From positions 1 through 48,110 of the forward strand of contig JANJVS010000186.1 of the NCBI GenBank assembly GCA_024709955.1: a DNA stretch of 48,110 nucleotides. The letters are read 5' to 3'. This DNA is from Rhodocyclaceae bacterium (GTDB taxonomy: Bacteria; Pseudomonadota; Gammaproteobacteria; Burkholderiales; Rhodocyclaceae). Shown here piece by piece: positions 6,521 to 47,831 of this stretch (position 1 is the first letter of the stretch; every line of letters begins with the position of its first letter). A program made the position numbers and the translations under genes. The notes beneath the pieces were generated by a model, which was not told the origin of the DNA, made no database searches, and saw only the letters and a list, made by a program, of their open reading frames with translations.

Positions 6521-7606
6521 ATGGCCTTGCTGGAATTCCGCAATCTCACCCGTCGTTTCGGCGATCTCTCCGCCGTGAATGACGTGAGCCTCGCCATCGA
6601 GGCCGGCGAGTTCTTCACCCTGCTCGGCCCCTCGGGCTGCGGCAAGACCACCATCCTGCGCATGATCGCCGGCTTCGACGCGCCGGATGCCGGCGACATC
6701 CTGCTCGACGGCGTTTCGCTGGCCGGCGTGCCGCCGGAAAAGCGGCCGCTGCACACGGTGTTCCAGAGCTACGCCCTGTTCCCGCACATGACCGTGGCGG
6801 GCAACGTCGCCTTCCCGCTCGAAATGGCTAAAAAGTCGGCGCTGGAGATACGGTGCCGCGTCAATGAAACCCTCGCGCTGGTGCATCTGGAGGACAAGGC
6901 GGACAGCTTTCCCCACGAACTCTCGGGCGGCCAGAAGCAGCGCGTCGCCCTGGCGCGCGGCCTGGTGAACAAGCCGCGCCTGCTGCTGCTCGACGAACCC
7001 CTCGGCGCCCTCGACGCCAAGCTGCGCGAGGAAATGCAGGTCGAGCTGATCGCCCTGCAGCGCGAGGTCGGCATCACCTTCGTCTTCGTCACCCACGCCC
7101 AGCAGGAGGCGCTCGCCCTCTCGCACCGCATCGCCGTGATGCGCAATGGCCGCGTCGAGCAGTGCGACGAGCCGGACAAGCTCTACACCCAGCCGGCCAA
7201 TCGCTTCGTCGCCGACTTCATCGGCAAGATCAACCTCATCGACGTCGAGGTGGCGGTGTCCACCAAGGTGCTGCTGACGCTCAAGGCGCCGGGGCTCGGC
7301 GAGATCGCCGCCGCCGACCCGCGCCCGCTCAAGGCCGGCGAGCGCGGCGCCTTCGCGCTGCGCCCCGAGCTGATCCGCGTCCATGGCCACAAGGAATCCG
7401 CCGACCTGAAGAATCGCTTCGCCGGCACGGTGCGCGAGCTGCTCTACCTCGGCGACGTGACGCTCTACAAGGTGGCGCTCGCCGACGGCCAGGTCATCGA
7501 GGCGCTGATGCCCAACGCCGCGCCGGGCCGCGCCAAGTTCCACGAGGTCGGCGACCCGGTCTGGGTCTGCTGGCGCCACGACGCGGGCGTGTTCCTCAAG
7601 GACTGA
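6521..7606 (+). CDS. potA: spermidine/putrescine ABC transporter ATP-binding protein
   Basis: At 361 residues this is the usual PotA length. Walker A is GPSGCGKTT at about residue 38, the Q-loop is VFQSYALFPHMTV, the signature is LSGGQKQRVALARGL, and Walker B is LLLLDEPLGALD, followed by a C-terminal TOBE-like regulatory region. It powers polyamine uptake with the three genes that follow 4 bases later. A degenerate copy of the 25-bp dispersed element lies in the helical subdomain, encoding the KKSALEIRCRV stretch, where family members usually read like K-x-P-x-A-E-I-x-x-R-V. The unusual Cys there may come from the element. Confidence 0.92.
   Translation: MALLEFRNLTRRFGDLSAVNDVSLAIEAGEFFTLLGPSGCGKTTILRMIAGFDAPDAGDILLDGVSLAGVPPEKRPLHTVFQSYALFPHMTVAGNVAFPLEMAKKSALEIRCRVNETLALVHLEDKADSFPHELSGGQKQRVALARGLVNKPRLLLLDEPLGALDAKLREEMQVELIALQREVGITFVFVTHAQQEALALSHRIAVMRNGRVEQCDEPDKLYTQPANRFVADFIGKINLIDVEVAVSTKVLLTLKAPGLGEIAAADPRPLKAGERGAFALRPELIRVHGHKESADLKNRFAGTVRELLYLGDVTLYKVALADGQVIEALMPNAAPGRAKFHEVGDPVWVCWRHDAGVFLKD
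6831..6855 (-). repeat. dispersed 25-bp element, copy 1 (inside potA, degenerate)
   Basis: On the plus strand it reads AAAAGTCGGCG, CT, GGAGATACGGTG. The first half is perfect and the second differs from GGCGGGACGGTG at three places. The strand given is the one on which it reads CACC to TTTT. It lies antisense to potA, unlike most copies. It is one of the weaker matches. Confidence 0.55.
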
Positions 7607-7610
7607 AGCG

Positions 7611-8420
7611 ATGAACGCGACGCGCTGGCTCGTCACCCTGCCGCCCACCGTCTTCCTGCTCGCCTTCTTCCTCGCGCCGGCGCTGATCGTCGTCGCCGCC
7701 TCGTTCCGCGAGCCCGGCGAATTCGGCGGCCTCGCCCCCTTCGTCGCCCCCAGCCTGGAGGCCTACCGCTTCCTCTTCGACGACATCATCTACGCCGAGA
7801 TCTTCGCGCGCTCCTTCCTCGTCGCCGCGCTCACCACGCTGATCTGCGTCGTGCTCGCCTATCCGCTCGCCTGGCTGATCGCCAGGAGCCCGGCGAAGCG
7901 CCGCGACCTCTTGGTGCTGCTGGTGATCCTGCCCTTCGCCAGCAACTTCCTGGTGCGCATCTACGCCTGGATCATGCTGCTCGGCCCGGTCAACCTGCTG
8001 TACACCCCCTTCGCGGTGATCGCCGGCATGGTCTATGTGCATCTGCCCTTCATGATCCTGCCGCTCTACACCAACCTCGAAAAGCACGACCCGGCGCTGC
8101 TCGAAGCCGCCCAGGACCTCGGCGCCAGCGCCTGGACGCGCTTCTGGCGCGTCACCTTTCCGCTCTCGCTGCCGGGCATTTTCTCGGGCGCGGCGCTGGT
8201 GTTCATCCCGGTGCTCGGCATGTTCGCCGTGCCCGAGCTGCTCGGCGGCACCGGCGACATGCTGATCGGCAACCTGATCAAGGAGCAGTTCCTCGACAAC
8301 CGCGACTGGCCGCTCGGCGCCGCGCTGTCGATCATGCTCACCGTCGCGGTGCTCGCCCTCGCCGGCCTCGCCGCCTGGGGCGCGCGCCGCGGCCTGCACG
8401 GCACGGAGGCGGTCTCATGA
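7611..8420 (+). CDS. potB: spermidine/putrescine ABC transporter permease
   Basis: This 269-residue inner-membrane permease has about six hydrophobic helices. The cytoplasmic EAA loop reads EAAQDLGASAWTRFWRVTFPLSLPGI near residue 165, the contact site for the ATPase. The N-terminal layout (TLPPTVFLLAFFLAPALIVVAASF) is that of PotB/PotH. It starts 4 bases after potA and its end overlaps the potC start by 4 bases, so the four genes are one operon in the E. coli potABCD order. Confidence 0.9.
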   Translation: MNATRWLVTLPPTVFLLAFFLAPALIVVAASFREPGEFGGLAPFVAPSLEAYRFLFDDIIYAEIFARSFLVAALTTLICVVLAYPLAWLIARSPAKRRDLLVLLVILPFASNFLVRIYAWIMLLGPVNLLYTPFAVIAGMVYVHLPFMILPLYTNLEKHDPALLEAAQDLGASAWTRFWRVTFPLSLPGIFSGAALVFIPVLGMFAVPELLGGTGDMLIGNLIKEQFLDNRDWPLGAALSIMLTVAVLALAGLAAWGARRGLHGTEAVS

Positions 8421-9196
8421 AGCGGCCGAACATTTGGCTATGGACCGCCTCCCTCGCGGTTTACGCCTTCCTCTACATCCCGCTCGCGGTGGTGGTGATC
8501 TTCTCCTTCAACGACTCGATGCTCAACGCCGAATGGGTCGGCTTCACGCTGGACTGGTACGCGAAGCTGCTCGGCGACGGCGAGATGCTGCGCGCGGCGG
8601 CCAACTCGCTGCTGATCGCGCTGTTGTCCTCGTCCATCGCCACCGCGCTCGGCGCCATGGCCGGCATCGCCATGCACCGCTGGCGCTTCCGCTGGCTGCC
8701 CTTCCTCGTGCTGACGCCGGTGGCGATGCCCGAGATCCTGCTCGGCGTCTCGCTGCTGCTGTTCTTCCGCCAGGTGCTCGACCTGACGCTGGGCTTCTTC
8801 TCCATCCTGGTCGCCCACATCACCTTCTCCATCGGCTTCGTCGCCGTCATCGTGCGCGCGCGGCTGGCGGGCATGGACGAAAGCATTTTCGAGGCGGCGC
8901 GCGACCTCGGCGCCACGCCCTGGGCCAGCTTCCGCCGCGTCACCCTGCCGCTGATCCTGCCGGCCCTGGTCGCCGGCTTCCTGATGAGCTTCACGCTTTC
9001 CATCGACGACTTCGTCATCACCTTCTTCGTCGCCGGCGTCGGTGTCACCACGCTGCCGCTGCAGATCTACTCGATGATCAAGGTGGCGGTGACCCCGGAG
9101 GTGAATGCCGTCTCGACGCTGCTGATGGCGCTGACCCTGACGCTGATCCTGACCGCCAGCCGCTTCGCGCCCGACGTGCTGAGGGGGCGCCAATGA
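8417..9196 (+). CDS. potC: spermidine/putrescine ABC transporter permease
   Basis: This 259-residue second permease of the transporter has six predicted helices. Its EAA loop reads EAARDLGATPWASFRRVTLPLILPAL, followed by SFTLSIDDFVITFFVAG, a PotC/PotI hallmark. ATGA overlaps link it to potB upstream and potD downstream. It should pair with PotB as the heterodimeric membrane channel. Confidence 0.9.
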   Translation: MKRPNIWLWTASLAVYAFLYIPLAVVVIFSFNDSMLNAEWVGFTLDWYAKLLGDGEMLRAAANSLLIALLSSSIATALGAMAGIAMHRWRFRWLPFLVLTPVAMPEILLGVSLLLFFRQVLDLTLGFFSILVAHITFSIGFVAVIVRARLAGMDESIFEAARDLGATPWASFRRVTLPLILPALVAGFLMSFTLSIDDFVITFFVAGVGVTTLPLQIYSMIKVAVTPEVNAVSTLLMALTLTLILTASRFAPDVLRGRQ

Positions 9197-10302
9197 GGCC
9201 ACCGTCCCGCCAGTCCCACGGGGATTCCCTTCGGTCACGCCGACTTTTGCTGGCCGGCGCGTTGGCGTTGCCGTTCTGGCGCGTCACCCGCGCCGCCGGG
9301 GACGTGCTCCATCTCTACAACTGGAACAACTACATCGGCGACGCGACGCTGGCGCGCTTCGCGGCCGCCTGCGGCTGCCGCGTCAGGCAGGACTACTACT
9401 CGGACAACGAGGAGATGCTCGCCAAGCTGGAGGCGGGCGCCGAGGGCTACGACCTGCTGGTGCCGACCGGCAACGCGGTCGAATCGCTGATCCGCCGCGC
9501 CGCGCTGCGGCCCATCGACAGGGAGCGCTTGCCCCATTTCGCCAACCTCAAGCGCGAGTTCCTCGATCCCTGGTTCGATCCGGGCAACCGTTATTCGGTG
9601 CCCTACGCCACCTCGATCACCCTGCTCGGCTTCAACGCGGACAGGATGCGCGCGCTCGGCCTGCCGACCGACAGCTGGGCGCTGATCTTCGAACCGGAGT
9701 GCCTGGAGAAAATCAAGGGCAAGGTCACGGTGCTCAACAGCCAGCGCGAACTGATGGCCGCGGCGATGCGCTACCTCGGCCATTCGGTGCAGGAACGCGA
9801 TCCGGCCAAGTGGGAGGCGGCCAAGCGCCTGATCCTGCGCGCCAAGCCCTGGTGGGCGACCTTCTCCAACAGCACCTACATCAAGGACCTCGCCATCGGC
9901 AACATCTGGGTCGCCCACGGCTACAGCAACGACATGTTCCGCGCCCGCGAGGATGCCAAGGCGGCGGGCCGGCCCTTCGCCATCGGCTTCGCCACGCCGC
10001 AGGAGGGCGCGGTGCTGGCGGTGGACAGCTTCGTGCTGCACCGGTCGGGGCGCCGGCCCGACCTGGCGCACCGCTTCATCGACTTCATGCTCGAAGGGGA
10101 GAACGCCGCCGACGTCTCCAACCTGATCGGCGCCGGCAACACCAACGCCGCCGCCATGGCCCACATCCTGCCGGAGATCGCCGGCGAGCCGGCGATTTTT
10201 CCGCCGCCCGCCATGCTGCCGCGCCTGGAGATGCTGCGCGACTTCGAGCCGCGCCTGCGGCGCCGGCTCGCGCGCATGTGGACCGAGATAAAGGTGCGCT
10301 GA
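9193..10302 (+). CDS. potD: periplasmic polyamine-binding protein
   Basis: This 369-residue protein starts at the ATG inside the potC stop (9193). After the signal region it reads VLHLYNWNNYIGDATLARFAAAC, the typical start of mature PotD/PotF, and later VPYATSITLLGFN and GYSNDMFRARE. The signal peptide has a twin-arginine look (S-R-R-L-L-L followed by AGALALPFW), so Tat export is possible. Bases 9200-9248, which encode residues ~3-19 including the two Arg and the start of the hydrophobic run, are a 49-bp copy of the dispersed element. The annotated signal peptide is therefore partly made of repeat DNA. PotD proteins usually use Sec. Confidence 0.9.
   Translation: MRPPSRQSHGDSLRSRRLLLAGALALPFWRVTRAAGDVLHLYNWNNYIGDATLARFAAACGCRVRQDYYSDNEEMLAKLEAGAEGYDLLVPTGNAVESLIRRAALRPIDRERLPHFANLKREFLDPWFDPGNRYSVPYATSITLLGFNADRMRALGLPTDSWALIFEPECLEKIKGKVTVLNSQRELMAAAMRYLGHSVQERDPAKWEAAKRLILRAKPWWATFSNSTYIKDLAIGNIWVAHGYSNDMFRAREDAKAAGRPFAIGFATPQEGAVLAVDSFVLHRSGRRPDLAHRFIDFMLEGENAADVSNLIGAGNTNAAAMAHILPEIAGEPAIFPPPAMLPRLEMLRDFEPRLRRRLARMWTEIKVR
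9200..9248 (+). repeat. dispersed element, long 49-bp form, copy 2 (5' end of potD)
   Basis: It reads CACCGTCCCGCC, then AG plus 24 extra bases (TCCCACGGGGATTCC...GGTCA), then CGCCGACTTTT. The outer blocks match the short form perfectly. It is nearly identical to the copy at 11824 (one mismatch). It starts 4 bases after the potC stop and lies inside the potD coding sequence. Confidence 0.9.
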
Positions 10303-10330
10303 AACAGTCCGCACGGCTAAAATTGTCGCC

Positions 10331-11782
10331 ATGTCCCGCCACGATATCTTCAGCCGCCACCGGCTCATCCTGCTGCTTTCCGCCGTGCTGGTGCTCGGTT
10401 TCCTCGCCACCTCGCTGATCAGCTATTACGTCTCGCGCCAGGCGATCCGCCACGCCATCATCGACCAGGATCTGCCGCTGACGTCGAGCAACATCTACTC
10501 GGAAATCCAGAAGGACCTGGTGCGTCCGGTGCTGATTTCCTCGACCATGGCCCACGACACATTCCTGCGCGACTGGGTGCTGCGCGGCGAGCAGGACGTC
10601 GACGAGATGTCGCGCTTCCTCAAGGAAGTGAAGCAGCGCCACGGCGCCTTCAGCAGCTTCTTCGTCTCCGAGAAGAGCGGCCGCTACTACACCGGCGAGG
10701 GCATCCTCAAGCGCGTCTCCTCCTTCGAGCCGCGCGACGCCTGGTACTACCGCGTGCGCGGCATGAGCGAGAACTACGAGATCAACGTCGATCCCGACCT
10801 CGCCAACGAGGACGCCCTGACCATCTTCATCAACTACCGCGTCTTCGACTATGCCGACAACTACATCGGCGCCACCGGCATCGGCCTCACCGTGGATGCG
10901 GTGCGGCGCCTGATCCGCGAATACCAGCAGCGCTTCCACCGCACCATCTACTTCGTGAACAGCCGCGGCCAGGCGGTGGCCTTCGCGCGCGGCGAGCAGC
11001 CGGCGGACTTGCGCCAGATGCCGGGCCTCGGCGCGCAGATCGACGCCATCCTGCAGCGGAAGCGCGGCTCCTTCCAGTACGAGGCGGACGGCGACAACCA
11101 CATCCTGCACGTCAATTACCTGCCCGAGCTCAAGTGGTATCTGTTCGTCGAGCAGAACGAGTCCGTCGCCCTCGCCGGCATCCGCCAGACGCTCTACTTC
11201 AACCTGGCCATCAGCCTGGTCGTGACGCTGATCGTCGTCTTCCTCACCCAGCTGGCGCTGTCGCGCTACCAGCGGCGCCTCGAACAACTGGCCTCCACCG
11301 ACGAACTCACCGGCCTGCTCAACCGCCACGCCTTCAACATCCTGATCGGCAAGCTGATCGCCGAATACCGGCGCGAGCCGCGGCCGATCAGCATGCTGAT
11401 GGTCGATATCGACCATTTCAAGCCGATCAACGACCGCCACGGCCACCTGGCCGGCGACACGGTGCTGGCGACGGTGACGCGCGTGCTGCAGGCCGGCCTG
11501 CGCGAATCGGATCTGGCGGTGCGCTGGGGTGGCGAGGAATTCCTGCTGGTGCTGAAGGGCTGCGAGCTCGCCGAGGCGGCCCGCATCGCCGAGAACCTGC
11601 GCGAGGCCGTCGCCGCGCGGCCGATCCGCGTCAAGGACACGGATATCGCCGTCACCCTGAGCATCGGCGCCAGCCAGTACGGCGGCGGCGAGTCGCCCGA
11701 GCAGGCCGTGAACCGTGCCGACGCCGCCCTCTACCGGGCCAAGGCCGGCGGGCGCAACCGCGTCGAGATCGCGGAAACCTGA
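10331..11782 (+). CDS. membrane diguanylate cyclase with periplasmic Cache sensor
   Basis: This 483-residue protein has one membrane helix near residues 10-32, a periplasmic region of about 250 residues in double-Cache style (FSSFFVSEKSGRYYTGEGI, RDAWYYRVR, LTIFINYRVFDYADNYIGATGIGL), a second helix near 290-312, and a GGDEF domain. The active site is intact (RWGGEEF), as are DIDHFKPINDRHGHLAGD and the primary inhibitory I-site (R-E-S-D five residues before GGEEF). It should make c-di-GMP in response to a periplasmic ligand and be subject to product inhibition. A weak TAAAAT lies just before the start at 10318-10323. Confidence 0.93.
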   Translation: MSRHDIFSRHRLILLLSAVLVLGFLATSLISYYVSRQAIRHAIIDQDLPLTSSNIYSEIQKDLVRPVLISSTMAHDTFLRDWVLRGEQDVDEMSRFLKEVKQRHGAFSSFFVSEKSGRYYTGEGILKRVSSFEPRDAWYYRVRGMSENYEINVDPDLANEDALTIFINYRVFDYADNYIGATGIGLTVDAVRRLIREYQQRFHRTIYFVNSRGQAVAFARGEQPADLRQMPGLGAQIDAILQRKRGSFQYEADGDNHILHVNYLPELKWYLFVEQNESVALAGIRQTLYFNLAISLVVTLIVVFLTQLALSRYQRRLEQLASTDELTGLLNRHAFNILIGKLIAEYRREPRPISMLMVDIDHFKPINDRHGHLAGDTVLATVTRVLQAGLRESDLAVRWGGEEFLLVLKGCELAEAARIAENLREAVAARPIRVKDTDIAVTLSIGASQYGGGESPEQAVNRADAALYRAKAGGRNRVEIAET

Positions 11783-11823: not shown

Positions 11824-11872
11824 CACCGTCCCGCGAGTCCCACGGGGATTCCCTTCGGTCACGCCGACTTTT
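11824..11872 (+). repeat. dispersed element, long 49-bp form, copy 3 (between cyclase gene and ubiU)
   Basis: It reads CACCGTCCCGCG, AG plus the same 24-base core as the potD copy, then CGCCGACTTTT. It differs from that copy only at position 12 (G for C). It begins 41 bases after the cyclase stop and ends 16 bases before the FNR-type box of ubiU. Confidence 0.9.
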
Positions 11873-17741: not shown

Positions 17742-18869
17742 TCAGGCTTCCTGGGTGGCGGGCCGCAAACTCGGCGCTGGCGGCACGGTGTCGGGCCGGC
17801 GCGTCAGGTGGCTGGCCGGCACTTCCACCCAGCGGTGGAAGGCGAAAGCGGCGGCGATGCTGAGCAGGAAGGCGGCGAGCAGGCCGGCCACGGCCGCGCC
17901 GGGAGAGGTCCAGCCGAGGCGCGCCCAGAGCGCCGACACCGCCACCAGCACGGGGAAGTGGATCAGGAACAGGCTGTAGGAGACCTGCCCGAGCCTGGCG
18001 ACGACGCGGTTGCGCGGCCAGTGGGCGCCGAACTCCAGCTTCTCGGCGGCGTAGAGCAGGAAGCCCACCGCCACGGCGATGCCGAGGCGCCAGCGCCATT
18101 CGACGAACAGGGCGGCGACCATGAGCGCCTGGAATGCCCAGAATTCCAGCCGGGCGCGGCCGCCGGCGAGAGCGCGGTGGATGACCACGCCGAGGAAGAA
18201 ATACGGGAAGAAATAGAGCCACCAGCTTTCCAACGCCGGGTCGAGATTGACGTGGAAGAGCGAGATGATCGCCAGCGGCCAGCCGAGCAGGCCGACGTAG
18301 TCGGTGGCGCCGCCGCCGATGCGGTCGCGCAGCCAGAGAGCGGCGGCGTAGACGAGCCCGAGCTGGAAGTTGATGCAGACGAACCACAGCCCGGCGGACA
18401 GCGGCTCGTAGCCGAGGATGTCCTGCAGGAAGAACAGGTGCGCCAGCAGCTGCGGGAGCGAAACCGGCGCGCCCAGCACCGCGTCGGGCACCCAGCCGCG
18501 CGCGAACGCGTAGATGGGCAGGGCCAGGGCGATGGTGGCCAGGTAGGGGATGCCGAGGCGCAAATAGCGCTGCGTCGCGAAACAGCCGATGCGGCGCAGG
18601 CTCCAGTCGTGCGCGCTCATGCTGCGCGCCATGACGTAGCCGCCGACGACGAAGAACACCTGCGTCGCGCGCGCGTTGTGCTCGATCCAGTCCAGCAGGC
18701 CGCCGACCAGCGGCGCCGCCCAGTCGCGCAGCGGCGGATAGAGCGCGAAGTGGTGCCAGAGGATGATCAGCGCGGCGCAGGCGCGCAGGGCGACGATGAA
18801 GGACAGCCGCCTACCCGCCGTGCGTCGGGAAGGCGCCGGCAGGCGGCAGAGCGCGGCAAACGAGAGCAA
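17742..18869 (-). CDS. acyltransferase family 3 membrane protein
   Basis: About 375 residues with around ten membrane segments. The pattern FIVALRACAALIILWHHFALYPPL with the catalytic His, ATQVFFVVGGYVMARSM and LGQVSYSLFLIHFPVL identifies the acyltransferase-3 (OafA/NodX) family, which acylates sugars or lipids at the membrane. No ATG fits well: I propose the TTG at 18869, as the frame upstream is open but runs into the ferredoxin gene region. The last ~15 residues (RPDTVPPAPSLRP) are encoded by a copy of the dispersed element. Confidence 0.75.
   Translation of the reverse strand: MLSFAALCRLPAPSRRTAGRRLSFIVALRACAALIILWHHFALYPPLRDWAAPLVGGLLDWIEHNARATQVFFVVGGYVMARSMSAHDWSLRRIGCFATQRYLRLGIPYLATIALALPIYAFARGWVPDAVLGAPVSLPQLLAHLFFLQDILGYEPLSAGLWFVCINFQLGLVYAAALWLRDRIGGGATDYVGLLGWPLAIISLFHVNLDPALESWWLYFFPYFFLGVVIHRALAGGRARLEFWAFQALMVAALFVEWRWRLGIAVAVGFLLYAAEKLEFGAHWPRNRVVARLGQVSYSLFLIHFPVLVAVSALWARLGWTSPGAAVAGLLAAFLLSIAAAFAFHRWVEVPASHLTRRPDTVPPAPSLRPATQEA
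17766..17790 (-). repeat. dispersed 25-bp element, copy 4 (3' end of acyltransferase gene)
   Basis: On the plus strand it reads CAAACTCGGCG, CT, GGCGGCACGGTG, with three differences from the consensus. It ends 24 bases from the stop codon and is in the sense (CACC to TTTT) direction of the gene. Confidence 0.7.
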
Positions 18870-20040: not shown

Positions 20041-21277
20041 ATCTCGCCGCCGCGAGGGTGACCAGCAGCGCCGCGCCCACCAGGCCCGCCGTGACGGCCA
20101 GGCTGTCGAGCCACTGGGGCGCGAAAACCAGCAGCAGGCCGAGCCCGAACATCATCGTGCCCGACATCAGCTTGAGCAGCCGGCCCTCGCGCTCGGTGAG
20201 CTTGTGCGCGGACAGGGTGCCGACGAAGGCCAGCACGATCAGCGCCAGCGGCACGACATAGACGAGGTTGTAGAGCGCGAGATAGGCGTAGCGCGCGGCC
20301 GGCGCGGTCTCGTGCAGCGTGAGGATGCGCGCATAGACCATCGGGAAGCCGGCGGTGCAGAGCAGTTCGTAGAAGTTCGCCGCCACCGCGAGGAACACCG
20401 TCGCCCCGAGCATTGCCGCCGGGCTGGCCGACTGCATGACGGCGCGGGCGCGGCGGTAGATGCCCGGCTTGGCGGACTCGGGTATCGCCAGGCTGGGGCC
20501 GCGCCTGAAGGCGAAGAAGTCCTTGAGGTTGAGCAGGCCGACGAGGACGGCGATGCCGCCCGCGATCAGCGTCACCGCCTCCAGGGCGCCGAGCAGCGCG
20601 AAGACGTTGAGCCAGGCGGCCATGAAGGCGAAGTACATCAAGCCGGAGGCGAGCACGAAGACCGCGCCGATCGCCAGCATGCGCCGGCGGTCGCGCTCGC
20701 GGGCGAGCAGGCTGAGCAGGAACAGCAGCACGAAGAAGGCGCAGGGATTGAAGGCGTCGAGGGCGGCGATGGCGACGGTGAACAGCGGCAGCGAGATCGA
20801 CCGTGGATCGACGGCCCCCAGCAGCGGCAGGCGCAGAGCCTCGGCGGCGGGGGCGTCGCCGGCGCGGCAGGCGTCGAGCCCGCGCAGCAACTGGTCGCCG
20901 CTGGTCGCCGCGCTTTCCCAGCCCACGACCATGCGGCCGCAGTAGATCAGCGTCGGCACCGCCTCGGCGCGCGCGCCGACGGCCGCCGCCAGCTCGGCGA
21001 AGCGCCGCGCGTTGGCGCGGTCGCGCGAGACCTCGATTTCGTGCAGCAGCACCCACGGCCGCTCGCGCGGAATCGCGGCGACGAAGGGGTGGGCGGCCTG
21101 GCAGTGCGGGCAGCGCTCCGACCAGAAGAAGTAGAGATGGACGCGGGCCGCGCCGTCGGCGCCGGGCTCGGTCCAGGCCGGCGCGGCCAGGGCGGCGCCG
21201 GCGAACGCGAGCCAGGCGAGGGCGGCGGCCAGCCAGCGCAGGATGTGGCGGCTCAGGCCGTGGAACGTTCCAGCCAT
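20021..21277 (-). CDS. thioredoxin domain fused to DsbD/CcdA-like membrane domain
   Basis: This 418-residue protein has a signal-like N-terminus, a periplasmic thioredoxin-like domain of about 130 residues with the CPHC active site ([16 protein letters not shown]), then about seven membrane helices. The membrane half has two Cys placed as in CcdA/DsbD ([13 protein letters not shown] and [12 protein letters not shown]), suggesting it carries electrons across the inner membrane to the thioredoxin domain. The start overlaps the end of the hybrid kinase gene by 25 bases. The protein is probably a reductant supplier; the target is unknown. Confidence 0.8.
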
Positions 21278-23172
21278 TTGAGCAGCACCTCGAACAGGCG
21301 ATCCGGTTCGATCGGCTTGGCGACATGGTCGTTCATGCCGGCGGCGAGACAGCTCTGGCGCGCGTCCTCGAAGGCGTTGGCCGTCATCGCCAGGATCGGC
21401 GTCGTCGCGTTGTGCGCCTGGGCGCGGATCGCGCGGGTCGCGTCGATGCCGTTCATGTTCGGCATCTGCATGTCCATCAGGATCAGGTCGTAGCGGTTGC
21501 GCGCGGCGAGGGCGACGGCTTCGGCGCCGTCCGCCGCCAGGTCTGCCTGCAGGCCGATGTCCTGCAGCAGGCCGAGGGACACCTCCTGGTTGATCGGCTC
21601 GTCCTCCGCCAGCAGGATGCGGACGCCCGCGAAGCGGGTCTTGAGCCGCTCCTCGGCGCCCGGGCCGGGCAAAGTCGGCGCCGGTGACACGGTGGGGGTG
21701 GCGCGCGCCAGCCGCGCCGTGAACCAGAAGGTGCTGCCGCGGCCGGGTTCGCTGTCGACGCCAATCTCGCCGCCCATCAGGTGCGCCAGGCGCTTGCTGA
21801 TCGCCAGCCCGAGGCCGGTGCCGCCGTACTTGCGCGTCATCGAGCCGTCCGCCTGCTCGAAGGCGGTGAACAGCCGCGCCTGGTCGGCGGGGGCGATGCC
21901 GATACCGGTGTCCGCGACGTCGAAGCGCAGCAATACGTCGTCGGCGTTGTCCTCGGCCAGCCGTACGCGCAGGGTGATGGCGCCGGTGTCGGTGAACTTG
22001 ATGGCGTTGCCGGCGAGGTTGAGCAGCACCTGGCCGAGGCGCAGCGGGTCGCCGCGCAGCGCCAGTCCGGCGATGGCCGGCGGCAGGTCGAAGCGCAGCG
22101 TCAGGCCCTTTTCGGCGACGCGATGGCCGATCAGGCTGTGGAGATTTTCCAGCACCTCGCCGAGCTTGAAGTTCGTCTGTTCGAGCCGGAGGCGTTGCGC
22201 CTCGATCTTGGAAATGTCGAGGATGTCGTTGATGACGCCGAGCAGATGCCGCGAGGCCTGGATGATCTTGCCGAGCTGGTCGCGCAGCCGGGGTTCGGTG
22301 GCGTGGCGCAATGCCAGGTCGGCCATGCCCATGATGCCGTTCATCGGCGTGCGCAGCTCGTGGCTCATGTTGGCGAGGAAGGTGCTCTTGGCGGCGTTGG
22401 CGCGTTCCGCTTCCTCCTTGGCCGCCCGCAGCGCGGCGGTGCGTTCCGTCACCAGCTTCTCCAGTTCATCGGCGCGGCGGCTTTCGGCCTGGCTGAAGGC
22501 GAGCAGCCGGTCGCGCAGTCCGTTGATGGCGGCGGTCAGCACCGTGAGTTCGTCGTCCAGCGCCGGTTCGCGGCGCTGCAGTTGCAGGACGGAGGCATCG
22601 AGGGGGCCGGCGTGGCTGCGCGCATAGCCTGCGATCTGGTCGAGATGCCGGCCGATCAGCCGGTAATAGATCACCAGCATGAAGAGGGCGACCAGGGTGA
22701 TCGTCACGCCGTTGGCGGCCAGCGCGAAGATCAGGCGGTCGAACGTGCGCCGGTAGGCGCCGGCGTAGGAAGCCGCCACCACCAGCTCGCCGATCAGCTG
22801 CTCCTGGCCGCGATGCATGCGCTTGAGCGGGAACGCGCGCGTGACGCCCGCCTCGCGCAGCGGCTCGCCCTGGCGCAGCAGGGTGCGTCCCTCGACGCGG
22901 ATCTCGGCCATGACGAATTCCGGCTGGCGCGTGATGCTGATGAGCTGGGTCTCCAGGCGCTCCTTGTCCATCACCCAGAGGTTCTCGACGGCGCTGGCGA
23001 CGTAGGCCACCTCGACCTGCTGGATGTGCTCGTCGATCAGGCGCACTTCGCCCCGGTAGCCGCGCCATAGTTCCGTCGCCGTGAACAGCAGGGTGACCGC
23101 GGAACTGAACAGGATGACATAGACGGCCAGGCGCAGGGCCAGCCGGCCCGGCCGGAAGCGGAGCAACGACAT
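21253..23172 (-). CDS. hybrid sensor histidine kinase with receiver domain
   Basis: This 639-residue protein has two membrane helices (about 13-33 and 150-172) enclosing a periplasmic region of ~115 residues, a HAMP-like linker and coiled coil, a HisKA domain ([18 protein letters not shown]), an HATPase with N box ([11 protein letters not shown]), G1 (DTGIGIAP) and G2 ([13 protein letters not shown]), and a REC domain ([12 protein letters not shown], phospho-Asp in [13 protein letters not shown]). The linker before REC ([14 protein letters not shown]) is partly encoded by a dispersed-element copy. It lies 9 bases after the solute-binding protein gene. No DNA-binding partner is in the window. 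Confidence 0.93.
21670..21694 (-). repeat. dispersed 25-bp element, copy 5 (kinase-receiver linker)
   Basis: On the plus strand it reads CAAAGTCGGCG, CC, GGTGACACGGTG. It differs from consensus at four positions. It is in sense orientation and falls exactly in the Pro-rich linker between the kinase and receiver domains. Confidence 0.6.
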
Positions 23173-26363: not shown

Positions 26364-26687
26364 TCAGCAGCAGGAATTGCCCTTGGCCGTCGGCGTGCAG
26401 CAGGCGGGCCGCGCCGCATCGGGCGCAAAAGTCGGCGCCGGCGGGACGGTGGGGGCGGGTTGGTCGGGCTGGCGCGCCGCTTCGTCGAAGCTGGCGTCGA
26501 GCATCTGCCCCGCCTCGTCGCGGATGTGGCGCGCGATGTCGACCACCAGGTCGATTTGCGCCGCGCCAATGCCGTAGCCGCGCAGGCGTTCGAGCTGGCA
26601 GAGCCCCTGCTTCGGGTGGTTGGCGGCGATGTTCGCGGCCAGGGAAACCAGCGCGACGATGGAAGGATGCAAGAGCGGATCGGTCAT
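26364..26687 (-). CDS. AhpD/CMD-like small protein with Cys-rich tail
   Basis: This 107-residue protein starts HPSIVALVSLAANIAANHPKQGLCQLERLRGYG, then IDLVVDIARHIRDEAGQ. This resembles the carboxymuconolactone-decarboxylase/AhpD helical fold, where members in arsenic operons usually have C-x2-C at the NHPKQGLC position; here the first Cys is missing. A Pro-rich linker encoded by a dispersed-element copy follows, then a tail with two Cys pairs (ACC-TPTAKGNS-CC) that could bind a thiophilic metal or arsenite. It lies between the permease and the thioredoxin-like gene. Confidence 0.6.
   Translation of the reverse strand: MTDPLLHPSIVALVSLAANIAANHPKQGLCQLERLRGYGIGAAQIDLVVDIARHIRDEAGQMLDASFDEAARQPDQPAPTVPPAPTFAPDAARPACCTPTAKGNSCC
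26427..26451 (-). repeat. dispersed 25-bp element, copy 6 (linker of AhpD-like protein)
   Basis: On the plus strand it reads AAAAGTCGGCG, CC, GGCGGGACGGTG, a perfect match. It is in sense orientation relative to the gene, 63 bases from its stop, and encodes the Pro-rich [10 protein letters not shown] stretch. Confidence 0.9.
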
Positions 26688-33004: not shown

Positions 33005-33029
33005 AAAAGTCGGTTGCGGCGGGACGGTG
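33005..33029 (-). repeat. dispersed 25-bp element, copy 7 (after ptsI)
   Basis: On the plus strand it reads AAAAGTCGGTT, GC, GGCGGGACGGTG, with two differences in the first block. It starts 9 bases after the ptsI stop in transcript-sense orientation. Confidence 0.85.
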
Positions 33030-33038: not shown

Positions 33039-34775
33039 TCATAGCCGCTCCACCTGTTCGCGGATGCGGTCGGGCTCCTCGCAGCGCAGGATGCGCGCCA
33101 CTTTCGCCGCCAGCTGTTCGGTGTCGGCCATGACGATCTGCTGCTTGACTTCGAGCAGCTGGGTCGGGTGCATGGAGAACTGGCGCAGGCCCATGCCGAG
33201 CAGCAGGCGCGTCAGTTTCGGGTCGCCGGCCAGCTCGCCGCAGACCGCCACCGGCATCTCGGCCTTCTGCGCGGCCTGGATCACCTGGGCGATCAGGCGC
33301 AGCACGGCCGGGTGCAGCGGGTCGTAGAGATGGGCGACCGCCTCGTCGGTGCGGTCGATGGCGAGCAGGTACTGGATCAGGTCGTTGGTGCCGATCGAGA
33401 GGAACTGCAGGCGCTTGACGAAGGCGCCGAGGGAGAGGGCGGCGGCCGGGATCTCGATCATGCCGCCGACGGCGATGCCCTCGTCGAACTTGCAGCGCCG
33501 CTCGCGCAGCTGCCACTTGGCCTGCTCGACCATCGCCAGGGTCTGCTCGATCTCGGTGACGTGGGCGAGCATCGGCACGAGGATCTGCACGCGGCCGTGG
33601 TGCGAGGCGCGCAGGATCGCGCGCAGCTGGGCGAGGAACAGCTGCGGCTCGGCCAGGCAGTAGCGGATCGCGCGCAGGCCGAGGGCCGGGTTGGGCGCCT
33701 GGCGCTCGGTGCCGGCCAGCGCGCGCGCGGTCTTGTCGGCGCCGATGTCGAGGGTGCGGATGGTCAGCGGCTTGCCGGCGAGGGACTTGGCGACCTGGCG
33801 GTAGGCCTCGTACTGCTCGTCCTCGCTGGGCAGCGAGTCGCGGTTCATGAAGAGGAATTCGGTGCGGAACAGGCCGACGCCGTCGGCGCCCGCCTCGCGG
33901 ACCTGCTCGACGTCCTGCGGCAGCTCGATGTTGGCCTGCAGGGTGATGTCCACGTTGTCGAGCGTGGTGGCGCGCGCGGTCTTGAGGCGCTTGAGCTTGG
34001 AGCGCTCCAGTTCGAGCTCGCGCTTGCGCAGCCGGTATTCCTCCAGCACGCGCGGATCGGGATCGACGATCAGCACGCCGCGCGTGCCGTCGATGATGAC
34101 CAGGTCGTCCTCGCGCACCAGCGGCCGCGCGTGGTGCAGGCCGACCACGGCGGGGATCGCCAGGCTGCGGGCGACGATGGCGGTGTGCGAGGTGGCGCCG
34201 CCGAGGTCGGTGACGAAGCCGGCGATCTTGAGGTTCTTGAACTGGATGGTGTCGGCCGGCGAGAGGTCGTGGGCGACGATCACCAGCGCGCCCTCGAAGT
34301 CCTTGCCGGCCTTCTTCGTCAGCTTGCGCGGCTTGCCGAGCAGGGCGCGCAGCACGCGCTCGACCACCTGGACGATGTCGTGCTTGCGCTCGCGCAGGTA
34401 GCTGTCGTCGATCTCGTTGAACTGGGCGACCAGCAGCTCCATCTGCTGCACCAGCGCCCATTCGGCGTTGCAGCGGCGCTCGCGGATCAGCGCCTTGGGC
34501 GCCTCGGCGAGCATCGGGTCGTCGAGGAACATCGCATGCACGTTCACCAGCGCCGCCAGCTCGCTCGGCGAGCCGGGGGCGGCGGCCTCGGTGCTCAGGG
34601 CGCCGAGCTCGGCGCGCACCGTCGCCATCGCATCGGCCAGGCGCTCGATCTCGCGCGGCACGTCGCGCTCGCGGACGGTGTAGTGGGCGACCTCCAGGGT
34701 CGCGTGCGACACCAGATGGGCATGGCCGATGGCGATGCCCTGGGAGACCGCGAGGCCGTGCAGGGTGAAGCTCAT
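33039..34775 (-). CDS. ptsI: PTS enzyme I
   Basis: This 578-residue protein of normal EI length has the phospho-His197 in GGATSHTAIVARS and PEP-barrel motifs DGVGLFRTEFLFM, GLRAIRYCLAEPQLF, PMLAHVTEIEQT, FLSIGTNDLIQYLLAIDR and VAVCGELAGDP. It passes phosphate from PEP to HPr. It lies 106 bases after ptsH. No sugar-specific IIB/IIC genes are nearby, so the chain is probably regulatory. Confidence 0.96.
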   Translation of the reverse strand: MSFTLHGLAVSQGIAIGHAHLVSHATLEVAHYTVRERDVPREIERLADAMATVRAELGALSTEAAAPGSPSELAALVNVHAMFLDDPMLAEAPKALIRERRCNAEWALVQQMELLVAQFNEIDDSYLRERKHDIVQVVERVLRALLGKPRKLTKKAGKDFEGALVIVAHDLSPADTIQFKNLKIAGFVTDLGGATSHTAIVARSLAIPAVVGLHHARPLVREDDLVIIDGTRGVLIVDPDPRVLEEYRLRKRELELERSKLKRLKTARATTLDNVDITLQANIELPQDVEQVREAGADGVGLFRTEFLFMNRDSLPSEDEQYEAYRQVAKSLAGKPLTIRTLDIGADKTARALAGTERQAPNPALGLRAIRYCLAEPQLFLAQLRAILRASHHGRVQILVPMLAHVTEIEQTLAMVEQAKWQLRERRCKFDEGIAVGGMIEIPAAALSLGAFVKRLQFLSIGTNDLIQYLLAIDRTDEAVAHLYDPLHPAVLRLIAQVIQAAQKAEMPVAVCGELAGDPKLTRLLLGMGLRQFSMHPTQLLEVKQQIVMADTEQLAAKVARILRCEEPDRIREQVERL

Positions 34776-38015: not shown

Positions 38016-39902
<1,887 letters not shown>

Positions 39903-39905
<3 letters not shown>

Positions 39906-42702: not shown

Positions 42703-42714
42703 GCGGAGGCCGCC

Positions 42715-43152: not shown

Positions 43153-43171
43153 GGCAGGCAGCTCCCCGTCG

Positions 43172-43196
43172 CACCGCCCCACCAGCACCGACTTTT
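43172..43196 (+). repeat. dispersed 25-bp element, copy 9 (between convergent genes)
   Basis: It reads CACCGCCCCACC, AG, CACCGACTTTT, with three differences from the consensus. It begins 19 bases after the stop of the small membrane protein gene, in that gene's sense direction, and ends 4 bases before the stop of the EAL gene. Confidence 0.75.
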
Positions 43197-43200
43197 CGGC

Positions 43201-44538
43201 TCAGCCGAGCCAGGCGATGTCGCCGCAGAGCACGCAGGGTTCGCCCTGGCGCAGGAAGCCCACCGACAGGGTGACGCACAGTTCCGCCGTGGTGGCCGAG
43301 AGGTAGGGGCGGGTCACCTGTACGCGGTCGAGCTGACGGATCGCGCGCCGGAAGTAGGGGCGGCGCGACCAGCGCGCCTCGCTGGCGTTGGCTAGCGGCC
43401 GGAAGCGGGGGCTCGGGTATGCCGCGCCGCCGCGGTTGCCCCACTTGTTCTCGCCGATCTGCCGGCCGGTGCGGTCGAGCAGATAGCAGAAATTCGCCAG
43501 CGGCAGTTCGAGGAAGCCGGCGCAGGCCTCCTCCGGCGGGCGGCCGGCGGCGATCAGCACCGAGGCATAGCCGAGGGCGTTGCGGTAGGGGGCGATCAGC
43601 TCGTGCTGGCCGACGCTGGCGGCGGCCTCGCGCGTGGTGAAGTCCTGCCACAGGGCGGCGATGCGCTGCCGGGCGTCGGCGCTGTTCTCCGGATGCGGCG
43701 CCGGCCTGGCGAAGTAGTAGCCCTGCACGAAGTCGATGTCGGAATCGAGGGCGATGCGCGCCTGGGTCTCGGTCTCGATGCCTTCCAGCAGCACCAGCGA
43801 GCCGGCCTCGTGCAGCAGGTTGACGATGCGCGGCATCAGCCGGCGCGCGCCGGCGTCGTGTTCCATGCGCACGGCGAAGGAGCGGTCGAGCTTGACGATC
43901 TCGGGGCGCACGGTCCAGACGCGGTCGAAGTTCGAGTGACCGGCGCCGAAGTCGTCGAGGGCGATGAGGAAGCCGGCGGCGCGCAGGCGCTCGACGGTCT
44001 CGGTGAAGCGCGCCTCGTCGCGGATCGCATCCTCCAGCACCTCGATCACCACGTCGTTGGCGGCCAGCCCGGCGTGGGCGAGCAGATCCACCATGAAGCC
44101 GCTCTTCGCCGCCGCGTCGATGAAGACTTCCGGGTGGACGTTGAGGAACAGCCACTGGCGTTCGCCGCCCGGGCGGTTGAGGACGTGCAGCATGCGGGCG
44201 AGGCGGTCGAGGACGACGAGCTCGCCGCGCTGTCGGGCGTCGGCGATCAGCGCCAGCGGCGACAGCGGGCGCTCCTGGGCGTCGCTGGCGCGCAGCAGCC
44301 CCTCGTGGCCGATCACGCGCTGGTGCGAGAGGCTGAAGATCGGCTGGTAGTGGCTGTCCAGCCGGCAGGCGCCGAAGCCGGCGCTCGCCCTGCCGGCGGC
44401 GTCGCGGCGCAGGCGGGCGAGCGCCCGGGCGAAGTCCGTCGTCGGCGCGCGGTCCGGGTCGGGCAGCAAGCAGTCGGGAGGCATGGCGGGTGGCATGGCG
44501 TGGGGCATGACCTGGGACGATGAAAACCGGGGCGTCAT
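43201..44538 (-). CDS. c-di-GMP phosphodiesterase (EAL) with C-terminal Cache/YkuI-C-like sensor
   Basis: This 445-residue protein has an EAL domain at about residues 60-285 with the catalytic set present: GHEGLLRA, LNVHPEVF, VIEVLEDA, ALDDFGAGHSN, VKLDRSF, LEGIETE and FVQGYYFARP. A sensor-like domain follows (FCYLLDRTGRQIGENKWGN, RRPYFRRAI, VTRPYLSATTAELCVTLSV), like the YkuI C-terminal PAS/Cache fold, probably cytoplasmic. It should degrade c-di-GMP under ligand control. It is 123 bases downstream of amtB, separated from it by a terminator. Confidence 0.9.
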   Translation of the reverse strand: MTPRFSSSQVMPHAMPPAMPPDCLLPDPDRAPTTDFARALARLRRDAAGRASAGFGACRLDSHYQPIFSLSHQRVIGHEGLLRASDAQERPLSPLALIADARQRGELVVLDRLARMLHVLNRPGGERQWLFLNVHPEVFIDAAAKSGFMVDLLAHAGLAANDVVIEVLEDAIRDEARFTETVERLRAAGFLIALDDFGAGHSNFDRVWTVRPEIVKLDRSFAVRMEHDAGARRLMPRIVNLLHEAGSLVLLEGIETETQARIALDSDIDFVQGYYFARPAPHPENSADARQRIAALWQDFTTREAAASVGQHELIAPYRNALGYASVLIAAGRPPEEACAGFLELPLANFCYLLDRTGRQIGENKWGNRGGAAYPSPRFRPLANASEARWSRRPYFRRAIRQLDRVQVTRPYLSATTAELCVTLSVGFLRQGEPCVLCGDIAWLG

Positions 44539-44550
44539 GGCGGCGATCAG

Positions 44551-44583
44551 AAAAAAAGGGCGCCCGGTTGGCGGTGGGCGCCC
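44551..44583 (-). terminator. rho-independent terminator of torF-glnK-amtB
   Basis: On the minus strand, GGGCGCCC, a 10-base loop, GGGCGCCC, then seven T. The stem is perfect at 8 bp. It lies about 80 bases after the amtB stop. Confidence 0.93.
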
Positions 44584-44661
44584 GAATCCACTTTGTCAGC
44601 GGAGGGAGGGTAAAGGAGACTGGCTTGCCGTCCCCCGCCGGGGCGGGAGACGGAGGTCGGG

Positions 44662-46134
44662 TCAGTAGTGGTAGGCCGATTCGCCGTGGGCCGTGATGTC
44701 GAGGCCCTCGCGCTCCTCGTCTTCCGGCACGCGCAGGCCGACCAGCACATCGACGATCTTGTAGCAGACGAAGGCGACGATGCCGGACCAGAGGACCACG
44801 GTGCCGACGCCCCAGAGCTGGCTGACGATCTGCGCGGCCATGTCGTACTCGCCGACGGCGTTGGCGACGTAGTCATACACGCCGGTGCCGCCGAGGGCCG
44901 GGGAGGCGAACACGCCGGTGAGGACCGAGCCGAGGATGCCGCCGACGCCATGCACGCCGAACACGTCGAGGGCGTCGTCCGCGCCGAGCAGCTTCTTGAG
45001 ACCATTCACGCCCCACAGGCAGACCACGCCGGCGAGCAGGCCGATGACGATGCCGCCCATCGGGCCGACGAAGCCGGCGGCCGGGGTGATCGCCACGAGG
45101 CCGGCGACGGCGCCCGAGGCGGCGCCCAGCATCGAGGGCTTGCCCTTGAACAGCCACTCCGCGATCATCCAGGACACCGTCGCGGCGGCCGTGGCGAACA
45201 GGGTGTTGACCATCGCCAGGGCGGCGACGCCGGTGGCTTCGAGGTTGGAGCCGGCGTTGAAGCCGAACCAGCCCACCCACAGCAGCGCGGCGCCCACCAT
45301 GGTCAGCGTCAGGCTGTGCGGCGTCATCGCCTCCTTGCCGTAGCCGACGCGCTTGCCGATCAGGAAGGCGCCGACCAGGCCGGCCATGGCGGCGTTGATA
45401 TGCACCACCGTGCCGCCGGCGAAGTCGAGCGCGCCCTTGGCCCAGAGGAAGCCGGCGCCGGCGAGCACCTTCTCCAGGGAGGCGGCGTCGCTGATCGCGT
45501 CGGGGCCGTCCCAGTACCAGACCATGTGCGCCATCGGCAGGTAGGAGAAGGTGAACCACAGCACCGAGAACAGCAGCACCGCCGAGAACTTGATGCGCTC
45601 GGCGAAGGCGCCGACGATCAGGGCCGTGGTGATGCCGGCGAAGGTGGCCTGGAAGGCGACGAATACCATCTCGGGGATGTACACGCCCTTGCTGAAGGTG
45701 GCGCCGAGGGATTCCGGCGTGACGCCCATCAGGAAGAGCTTGTCGAAGCCGCCGAAGAAGGCGCTGCCGCCGGTGAAGGCCACGCTGTAGCCATACACCG
45801 CCCACAGCACGCTGATCAGCGAGAAGATGACGAATACCTGCATCAGCACCGAGAGCATGTTCTTGGCGCGCACCAGGCCGCCGTAGAACAGCGCCAGGCC
45901 GGGGATGGTCATCAGGATGACGAGGATGGTGGCGGCCATCATCCACGCCGTGTCGCCCTTGTCGGGCACGGGCGCGGCGGCGGGGGCGGCCTCGGGAGCG
46001 GCGGCCGGGGCCTCGGCCGCCGGCGCCGCGACGGCCGCGACGGGCGCGGCTTCGGCGGGCTTGTCGTCCGCCGCGGCCAGGCCCGGGATGCCGAGGCTGA
46101 TGGCCGTCAGCACGATTGCGAGCAGTTTCTTCAT
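44662..46134 (-). CDS. amtB: ammonium transporter AmtB
   Basis: This 490-residue protein has a signal peptide (cut at about AAADD, residue ~22), an Ala/Pro/Glu spacer of about 38 residues, then the 11-helix Amt core: AWMMAATILVILMTIPGLALFYGGLVRAKN, DFAGGTVVHINAAMAGL with the twin-His pore and DVFGVHGVGGILG. The C-terminal tail is that of PII-regulated channels (VGLRVPEDEEREGLDITAHGESAY). It conducts ammonium or ammonia across the inner membrane. AAGGAG precedes the ATG. It is 11 bases after glnK. Confidence 0.96.
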   Translation of the reverse strand: MKKLLAIVLTAISLGIPGLAAADDKPAEAAPVAAVAAPAAEAPAAAPEAAPAAAPVPDKGDTAWMMAATILVILMTIPGLALFYGGLVRAKNMLSVLMQVFVIFSLISVLWAVYGYSVAFTGGSAFFGGFDKLFLMGVTPESLGATFSKGVYIPEMVFVAFQATFAGITTALIVGAFAERIKFSAVLLFSVLWFTFSYLPMAHMVWYWDGPDAISDAASLEKVLAGAGFLWAKGALDFAGGTVVHINAAMAGLVGAFLIGKRVGYGKEAMTPHSLTLTMVGAALLWVGWFGFNAGSNLEATGVAALAMVNTLFATAAATVSWMIAEWLFKGKPSMLGAASGAVAGLVAITPAAGFVGPMGGIVIGLLAGVVCLWGVNGLKKLLGADDALDVFGVHGVGGILGSVLTGVFASPALGGTGVYDYVANAVGEYDMAAQIVSQLWGVGTVVLWSGIVAFVCYKIVDVLVGLRVPEDEEREGLDITAHGESAYHY

Positions 46135-46145
46135 TGCAGTTCTCC

Positions 46146-47375
<1,230 letters not shown>

Positions 47376-47440
47376 TTATTTAAATCATCATGTTGTTATA
47401 TTTATGCCGAAAGTCATGGCAGGGCCGCCGGTGATCGCAT

Positions 47441-47487
47441 GCACCTGTTTGTATCCGTGCCGGCGCGCTGCCGCACCGTCGTGGTGC
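47441..47487 (-). promoter_or_regulatory. NtrC-type enhancer sites
   Basis: 47473-47487 reads GCACC-GTCGT-GGTGC, a perfect NtrC palindrome. 47441-47455 reads GCACC-TGTTT-GTATC, with only one good half. Centres are 32 bases apart and lie at about -143 and -111 from the predicted sigma-54 start, close to the -140/-108 layout of E. coli glnAp2. The stronger site is upstream. Confidence 0.75.
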
Positions 47488-47564
47488 GCCGCATCGGTGC
47501 CGGGCGATGGCGGCGCCGCGGTGGTGCTACACTCGGCCATCCCGTCCAGCCATTCGTCATCGCC

Positions 47565-47804
47565 ATGCTCGACCCCAAGATTCTCGAAGACCTGAGCGCG
47601 CGCATTTCCGCCGTCCTGGCCGCCACGCCGGCCGCCGACGTCGAAAAGAACCTGCGCGCGCTGCTCACCTCCGCCTTCGCGCGCCTCGACCTCGTCACGC
47701 GCGAGGACTTCGAGGTGCAGAAGGAGATGCTGGCGCGCGCCCAGGCGCGGCTGGCGACGCTCGAAGCGCGGCTCGCCGAGCTCGAAGCCCGGCGCAAGAC
47801 CTGA
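47565..47804 (+). CDS. ubiK: UbiK, ubiquinone biosynthesis accessory factor
   Basis: This 79-residue protein begins [15 protein letters not shown] and contains [39 protein letters not shown], closely following E. coli UbiK (YqiC): an amphipathic N-terminus and a C-terminal coiled coil that trimerises. UbiK helps UbiJ organise the aerobic ubiquinone complex. It is divergent from torF (268 bases, holding the nitrogen control sites) and precedes comM. Confidence 0.93.
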
Positions 47805-47806
47805 GC

Positions 47807-47831
47807 CACCGTCCCGCCGGCGCCGACTTTT
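47807..47831 (+). repeat. dispersed 25-bp element, copy 10 (between ubiK and comM)
   Basis: It reads CACCGTCCCGCC, GG, CGCCGACTTTT, a perfect match. It begins 2 bases after the ubiK stop, in sense orientation, and ends 16 bases before the comM start. Confidence 0.92.

Follow-up and report, generated by a model that had tools for sequence, protein, structure and literature searches.

A recurrent 25-bp two-block motif of Rhodocyclaceae genomes as a candidate DNA-uptake-signal-like element

A contig of 48,110 nucleotides from a Rhodocyclaceae bacterium (JANJVS010000186.1; this whole stretch is called the window below) raises the question of why one 25-bp sequence, composed of two blocks in the form CACCGTCCCGCC-NN-CGCCGACTTTT, recurs in it so densely. 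A preliminary description, made from the letters of the window alone, had considered a mobile miniature element, a binding site for a chromosome-organising protein and a DNA-uptake-like signal. The last of these readings appears to be the best supported of the three, given the abundance, in-place origin, dialects and even spacing of the motif, and we regard the element as a candidate DNA-uptake-signal-like motif with a probability of roughly two in three.

All ten copies that had been reported were found at their positions, and the copies said to be perfect are exact (Table 1). One additional copy, at 38969, shares its gene with the copy at 39097. The copies at 6831, 17766, 21670 and 39097, and possibly that at 26427, are located inside reading frames, and the long copy at 9200 runs two bases into the solute-binding-protein gene, whose start is predicted at 9247. 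The density had been judged too high for chance, and indeed no match at up to three mismatches appeared in 100 dinucleotide-shuffled versions of the window, as against seven observed in the window itself.

Table 1. Location of the short and long forms of the motif in the window
Feature	Position	Strand	Context
Motif copy, 3 mismatches	6831–6855	-	Within ABC-transporter ATPase gene, potA subfamily (6521–7606, +)
Long form, 49 bp, exact	9200–9248	+	Between gene ending at 9196 and solute-binding-protein gene
Long form, 1 mismatch	11824–11872	+	Intergenic
Motif copy, 3 mismatches	17766–17790	-	Close to 3' end of Acyl_transf_3 gene (17742–18869, -)
Motif copy, 4 mismatches	21670–21694	-	Within hybrid histidine kinase gene (21253–23172, -)
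Exact copy	26427–26451	-	Short predicted frame with no Pfam match (26364–26687, -)
Motif copy, 2 mismatches	33005–33029	-	Intergenic, downstream of PEP-utilising enzyme gene (33039–34775, -)
Motif copy, 4 mismatches	38969–38993	-	Within ABC-F gene
Exact copy	39097–39121	-	Within ABC-F gene (38016–39905, +), which reads KSALAGR there
Motif copy, 3 mismatches	43172–43196	+	Between convergent genes
Exact copy	47807–47831	+	Short gap between co-directional genes, after BMFP-domain gene

A count of both forms in the whole genome (3.51 Mb), which had been proposed as a check, revealed 630 copies of the motif at up to three mismatches (325 and 305 on the two strands), against zero for the reversed-pattern control, and 18 long forms at the same threshold. 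The copies are thus more numerous than chance would produce, and the motif is commoner than was first supposed. Its consensus is sharp: in 435 kb of the same genome, 94 copies were found at up to three mismatches, 107 at up to four and 115 at up to five, the reversed control reaching seven at the last threshold. The flanks are at background level on both sides, with no conserved flanking sequence for the copies as a group, and after masking of the motif the best remaining 12-mer in the 435 kb scored 24.5 versus 205.6. The copies are spaced more evenly than expected by chance (coefficient of variation 0.63 versus 0.83 ± 0.085 in simulations, 0.4% of 2000 simulations being as low), in stretches which, like the 435 kb, come from contigs known to contain exact copies and therefore have an inflated density. 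Even spacing along the genome is a feature of uptake sequences; the density of the motif is below that of the USS in Haemophilus influenzae.

About half of the copies are located within predicted genes (45 of 91, 103 of 201 and 47 of 109 in three samples), fractions that are approximate because our home-made gene caller misplaced at least one gene, calling a frame on the minus strand in place of the ABC-F gene; this call was corrected by hand for the orthologue tests and not for the count of 45 of 91. The 109 copies come from stretches picked blind to motif content and include 47 coding, 51 intergenic and 11 straddling copies. Intergenic enrichment was seen in this sample and in that of 91 copies, and convergent gene pairs are over-represented, holding 22 of the 73 classified intergenic copies versus 15% of intergenic bases. 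Within genes, 49 of 103 coding copies are in sense and 54 in antisense orientation. The frames are used unevenly and some peptides recur, for example KSALAG and PAPTF, which in a high-GC genome might suggest a protein-coding repeat or an artefact of codon bias. However, four frame/orientation classes hold at least 14 of the 103 copies each, the motif is equally frequent outside genes, and neither shuffles nor the reversed control yielded any copy; this explanation has been refuted on these grounds and its probability is negligible.

A T-run at one end of the motif, together with the excess between convergent genes, brings to mind a transcription terminator or an RNA element. A few copies do form hairpins with an inverted partner; one intergenic pair (L164:8977-9036) makes up an almost perfect inverted repeat with T's at its end, and a 127-base composite folds somewhat better than its shuffles (z -1.93). 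This function is nevertheless hard to reconcile with the half of the copies located in genes on either strand, and only six of 78 intergenic copies have, in the 110 bp upstream, a partner resembling AAAGTCGG. Hairpin folding of the short unit was no better than that of shuffles, nor was that of the long form, and an Rfam search of the window brought one tRNA over the threshold and otherwise no family. We therefore consider a terminator or RNA element very improbable. The earlier statement that the element is not an ordinary REP hairpin or terminator holds for nearly all copies and fails for a few intergenic ones, which form terminator-like inverted pairs.

Comparison of orthologous loci with and without the element, also proposed earlier, gave gapless alignments for most testable coding copies and gapped ones for a minority. 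Copies were testable where a motif-free orthologue was in hand, that is, 39 of the 103 coding copies at about 18 distinct sites, with one ABC-F gene dominating. At least one gapless alignment to a motif-free orthologue was obtained for 33 of these 39 copies, including that at 39097, and gapped matches only for the remaining six; the closest motif-free orthologue was gapless in 25 cases and gapped in 14. The ABC-F gene bears the motif at five different sites in different species, and the motif-bearing loci form a single clade in the ABC-F tree (100/100). Given the gapless motif-free orthologues and the five ABC-F sites, the coding copies appear to have arisen mainly via substitution rather than insertion. 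It should be mentioned that motif sites are gappier than nearby control sites (84% versus 93% gapless, and 85% versus 91% in a second comparison), and that gaps or indels occur in the alignments of some intergenic or linker copies. A net deficit of eight codons in the motif-free orthologue, expected of a 25-bp insertion, was seen in two of 135 gapped pairs.

These data bear on the possibility of a mobile REP/MITE-like repeat copied by a transposase, the short copies being deletion products of the 49-bp form. Such an origin would accommodate the two forms, the intergenic enrichment, the gapped intergenic or linker alignments and the intergenic composites, in which a GC-rich segment lies between two direct copies separated by about 100 bp. 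Like REP/RAYT elements, the motif is a short dispersed repeat, partly intergenic and at times paired, and nine of the 16 motif-rich genomes searched have one or two Y1_Tnp (RAYT-type) genes, strong in G003 and G028. Unlike such elements, it has no stable hairpin in its unit, is mostly gapless in genes and occurs in seven of the 16 genomes where the Y1_Tnp gene is absent, among them the genome of the window, for which RAYT mobilisation is ruled out. With gapless orthologues, unconserved flanks and the seven genomes without Y1_Tnp, the mobile miniature element of the preliminary description is left unsupported as the main explanation; for coding copies the alignments largely refute it, and overall it seems quite improbable. 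The long form is, judged by its sequence, the ordinary motif split at its centre by a 24-bp insertion, a minority variant. No uptake sequence interrupted internally by 24 bp is known to us.

Protein-binding sites too arise by substitution, so gapless alignments also fit a site for a protein of chromosome organisation, segregation or recombination (matS-, KOPS-, Chi- or NAP-like), the copies being kept by selection on chromosome function. Abundance, rather even spacing and the presence of both genic and intergenic copies are in line with this possibility; KOPS, Chi and matS are likewise short and numerous and have genic copies too. KOPS and Chi are polar, and matS and parS are regionally confined. 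The present motif is longer, and strand polarity and regional clustering are both absent in the closed genome G028, where the dialect core occurs 92 times in forward and 83 times in reverse orientation, 45 of 89 listed forward places precede the chromosome midpoint, and the listed places are distributed round the whole circle. The suggested comparison of position and strand with the replication origin thus revealed no replichore polarity in this genome, assuming an origin near base 1, with which the GC skew agrees in five of six stretches and not at 100 kb. The dialects and near absence of the motif from sister genera would moreover need a lineage-specific protein. According to excerpts of PMC1626085, the USS have a strong consensus and regulatory binding sites a relaxed one, and our motif is long and its consensus sharp. 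A chromosome-organising binding site therefore fits less well than an uptake signal, and we consider it unlikely.

Among 19 genomes of the same genus, 18 carry the motif in abundance (51–630 copies each). It is likewise abundant in nine of the 68 genera sampled in the family and nearly absent from sister genera. Lineage dialects, AAAAGTCAGTCC and AAAAGTCGACGC, were found in other genera, and the single-contig genome G017 has 396 copies with a widened pattern. The exact core was also found in 27 stretches of viral contigs. No copies were found in G005, a genome placed in the same genus, nor any excess of degenerate copies over 56 kb, yet it retains ComEC. The genome of the window has ComEC plus pilins of the ComP_DUS and GspH families. 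ComEC is present in every sampled genome with more than 30 copies, but also in 244 of 249 genomes of the family, rich or not. ComP_DUS (PF16732) is over the cut-off in 229 of 249 genomes and missing from motif-rich G086, G177 and G239; GspH (PF12019), searched in 21 genomes, is missing from G028, G087, G177, G239 and G086. Being near-ubiquitous or patchy, these genes fail to distinguish motif-rich from motif-poor genomes; none of the genes tested thus follows the motif, and co-occurrence did not yield a receptor.

We infer an uptake function, including receptor binding of the motif and the resulting uptake bias, from the pattern that the motif shares with the uptake sequences known from Neisseriaceae and Pasteurellaceae. 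A putative receptor of the DNA-import machinery, presumably a minor pilin of the type IV pilus at the cell surface, would recognise the motif, and fragments carrying it would be imported and recombined more often. New copies would originate by point mutation in place or arrive within a recombining homologous fragment, and uptake bias would then spread them.

In the literature searched, self-recognition tags for DNA import are reported solely for Neisseriaceae and Pasteurellaceae, and neither the motif nor uptake sequences in Rhodocyclaceae are described among the matches listed (titles and beginnings of abstracts, preprints excluded). It is rather probable, with slightly less assurance than for the motif itself, that Rhodocyclaceae sensu lato (including Desulfobacillus and the Sulfuritalea/Sulfurisoma clade) represent a third family with an uptake-signal system of its own, having a 25-bp two-block motif, a putative receptor, several dialects and a variant spaced by 24 additional bp. 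If so, this would be the first uptake tag beyond the two families where such tags are known. The members of these families mostly live on animal mucosa, and an environmental high-GC case with dialects in multiple genera would show repeated evolution outside the mucosal niche. It would also provide an independent test of tags as molecular drive versus selected mate recognition, and comparing motif-rich with motif-free sister genera would offer a new way of finding the DNA receptor.

The DUS of Neisseriaceae, whose receptor is ComP, are similar to the motif in their many copies, location in genes, over-representation between genes, lineage dialects and location in slightly freer gene regions (excerpts of PMC3630211 and PMC2397512). 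Uptake sequences occur in terminators (excerpts of PMC13020248), and some copies of the motif are found in terminator-like pairs. The motif differs from DUS in its sequence and in having 25 bp with two conserved blocks, whereas DUS measure up to about 13 bp and the extended USS 17 (excerpt of PMC12616744). It differs from DUS also in the additional form with a central 24-bp insert, in that no gene tested as receptor tracks it, and in its high-GC, mostly uncultured, environmental hosts, of which the isolate Sulfurisoma sediminicola BSN1 is a cultured example. From the Pasteurellaceae USS it is distinguished by another sequence, by flanks that are not AT-rich past the 25 bp and by the unrelated bacteria that carry it, while the sharp consensus and an A/T run at one end are common to both. 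The copies in pre-existing genes, too, would be substitutions and not insertions, as in the USS, for which the same gapless-alignment test gave this result (Redfield et al., 2006, excerpts of PMC1626085).

All ten copies of the 25-bp motif claimed in the preliminary description were found again in the window, three short copies and the long copy at 9200 proved exact, and an eleventh copy was detected (Table). Its view that the density exceeds chance held as well, with seven copies at ≤3 mismatches in the window versus none in 100 shuffles. A count of both forms in the whole genome holding the window (3,512,931 bases, 237 contigs), proposed in the same description, gave 630 copies of the short form at ≤3 mismatches (325 + 305 by strand), 91 of them exact (hand count of the listing), and 18 copies of the 49-bp form; the reversed short pattern occurred 0 times in the same bases at this threshold. 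Intergenic copies were in excess per base (51 of 109 copies in 10% of the sequence) and favoured convergent gene pairs (22 of 73 classified copies vs 15% of intergenic bases).

Coding and other copies shared one consensus, least conserved at positions 7, 8, 13, 21 and 25, with background-level flanks; the sharpness of the consensus in this set (45 + 45 copies chosen at ≤3 mismatches) is partly due to construction. The motif is truly sharp, since copy counts level off as more mismatches are allowed. The unit folds no better than shuffled sequence. The extra 24-bp segment of the long form was found only between recognisable, sometimes degenerate, motif halves (all six occurrences in 435 kb) and is also present in relatives with small changes of length. 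In the lnt gene of L045 the long form lies in frame, at a place where the protein has extra residues compared with solved Lnt proteins; opposite it, 6nwr shows a gap of 9 residues (net 8), and therefore this centre insert adds eight codons. Some intergenic composites consist of a direct pair of copies, spaced by roughly 100 bp, flanking a GC-rich segment, which in most of them holds a partial inverted AAAGTCGG, and others of a near-perfect inverted pair. In another kind of composite (loci L003, L010, L020 and L030) similar 60-bp segments immediately precede the motif.

Table. Location of individual motif features and of the candidate receptor region
Feature	Location	Content
Eleventh motif copy	window, 38969-38993	
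Long form in lnt	L045:1501-1549	49-bp form
Direct-copy composites, intergenic	L011:1501-1627; L021, L023, L041, L044, L050	two direct copies
Candidate receptor region	L166:11632-12356 (own genome, contig C197)	ComP_DUS-family pilin, then GspH/FimT-family pilin

A first survey covered 61 genomes, 19 of the same genus, 18 of other genera of the family and 24 from other families of the order. The motif was present in 51-630 copies in 18 of the 19 genomes of the genus; among the other genera of the family two genomes (G019 and G026) were rich and the remainder had 0-5 copies, while 0-4 copies per genome were found in the other families. The exception within the genus, G005, had no motif copies and no excess of degenerate ones, and is possibly misplaced or a case of true loss. 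With a widened pattern, 249 genomes of 68 genera of the family yielded genomes with >100 copies in genera g1, g2, g9, g62, g70 and g88; a looser pattern extended the list to g11, g47 and g69, all three of which include a genome with at least 39 copies. Motif-rich genomes include the single-contig G017 and G110, which rules out an assembly artefact as the source of the abundance. In some otherwise poor genomes the motif is bunched on few contigs (G097, C104 and C66; G123, C1 at 1.46-1.49 Mb; G096, C50), possibly representing DNA transferred from motif-rich relatives.

When all 12-mers were counted without the motif as input (cut-off 5), the top word of the own genome was AAAAGTCGGCGC, the motif on its reverse strand (55 vs 0.5 expected). 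Sister words were revealed in G028 (AAAAGTCAGTCC), in G086 (AAAAGTCGACGC) and in G002, the last with an additional variant AACTCGGCGCTG; the short stretches sampled from G005 and G019 held no motif-like 12-mer that reached the cut-off. Stretches L146-L150 of G021, from a motif-poor genus, contain repeated words of their own, AAAGCGAATCCC and ACCCCCGAACGG (both found eight times in 100 kb), perhaps another repeat family.

Homologues of the window ABC-F protein assign the window to Rhodocyclaceae, close to Sulfurisoma and Sulfuritalea. When 37 of these proteins (the window and 36 of 80 homologue loci, hand-chosen, mostly the closest) were placed in a tree, the window fell within a fully supported clade of 15, whose 14 other members all had 1-11 copies per 5-22 kb locus (widened pattern, ≤3 mismatches); outside the clade copies appeared in just 2 of 22 rows, L077 (two) and L086 (one). 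The gene carries the motif at five sites in different species (nucleotide offsets about 426, 953, 1081, 1648 and 1714), for example WQAEKSALAGRLADP versus WQAEKTELDGKLADP.

The origin of coding copies was studied in 114 loci (1.88 Mb), where the widened pattern matched 201 times at ≤2 mismatches; 103 of these copies lie within predicted genes, 78 are intergenic and 20 straddling. Thirty-nine of the 103 were testable, 58 having no usable orthologue and 6 only motif-bearing ones. At least one motif-free orthologue was gapless for 33 of these 39, and the closest one for 25, in a set dominated by the one ABC-F gene and comprising about 18 distinct gene sites by our own grouping, 13 with gapless support. 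Thus the mobile miniature element offered in the preliminary description fails for most testable coding copies. Over all motif-free pairs the gapless share was 84% at the motif vs 93% at controls 60-240 bp away (85% vs 91% in a smaller orthologue set), and because it is below control positions, either motif sites lie in freer gene regions, as a passage of PMC2397512 reports for DUS, the uptake sequences of Neisseriaceae, or a minority of copies are insertions. The identical test is described in a part of Redfield et al. (PMC1626085) as showing that USS of Pasteurellaceae are not insertions, and a section of Treangen et al. (PMC2397512) argues for recombination, not point mutation, as the source of many recent DUS; both fit the present data.

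Spacing was more even than random in 21 own stretches including the window (CV 0.63 vs simulated 0.83 ± 0.085; as low in 0.4% of 2000 simulations). The closed genome G028 has 92 forward and 83 reverse copies of its dialect core, and among the 89 forward places listed, 45 fall in its first half. An origin near base 1 was assumed; in six 20-kb stretches, GC skew agrees with it at five (positive skew at 0.5, 0.9 and 1.3 Mb, negative skew at 1.7 and 2.1 Mb), whereas the sixth, at 0.1 Mb, is negative and disagrees.

The motif is abundant, mainly of in-place origin within genes, split into dialects, neutral to strand and replication, and evenly spaced. It is best read as a candidate uptake signal, the uptake-like option of the preliminary description, maintained via biased import and recombination: we infer that a receptor would recognise it and bias uptake toward motif-bearing DNA. 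The own genome has ComEC and the minor-pilin families ComP_DUS and GspH of type IV pili. G005 counts against an uptake signal, as it kept ComEC yet lacks the motif or remnants; none of the genes tested tracks the motif, and the ComP_DUS family was not found in three motif-rich genomes. The main rival is the binding site of a chromosome protein, also among the options put forward initially.

Passages on uptake sequences in PMC12616744, PMC13020248, PMC4212676 and PMC3630211 mention them for Neisseriaceae and Pasteurellaceae only, and the literature matches listed include no description of them in this Rhodocyclaceae clade. Without claiming membership in the DUS/USS class itself, we estimate from sequence a chance of about two in three that the motif works like DUS and USS.
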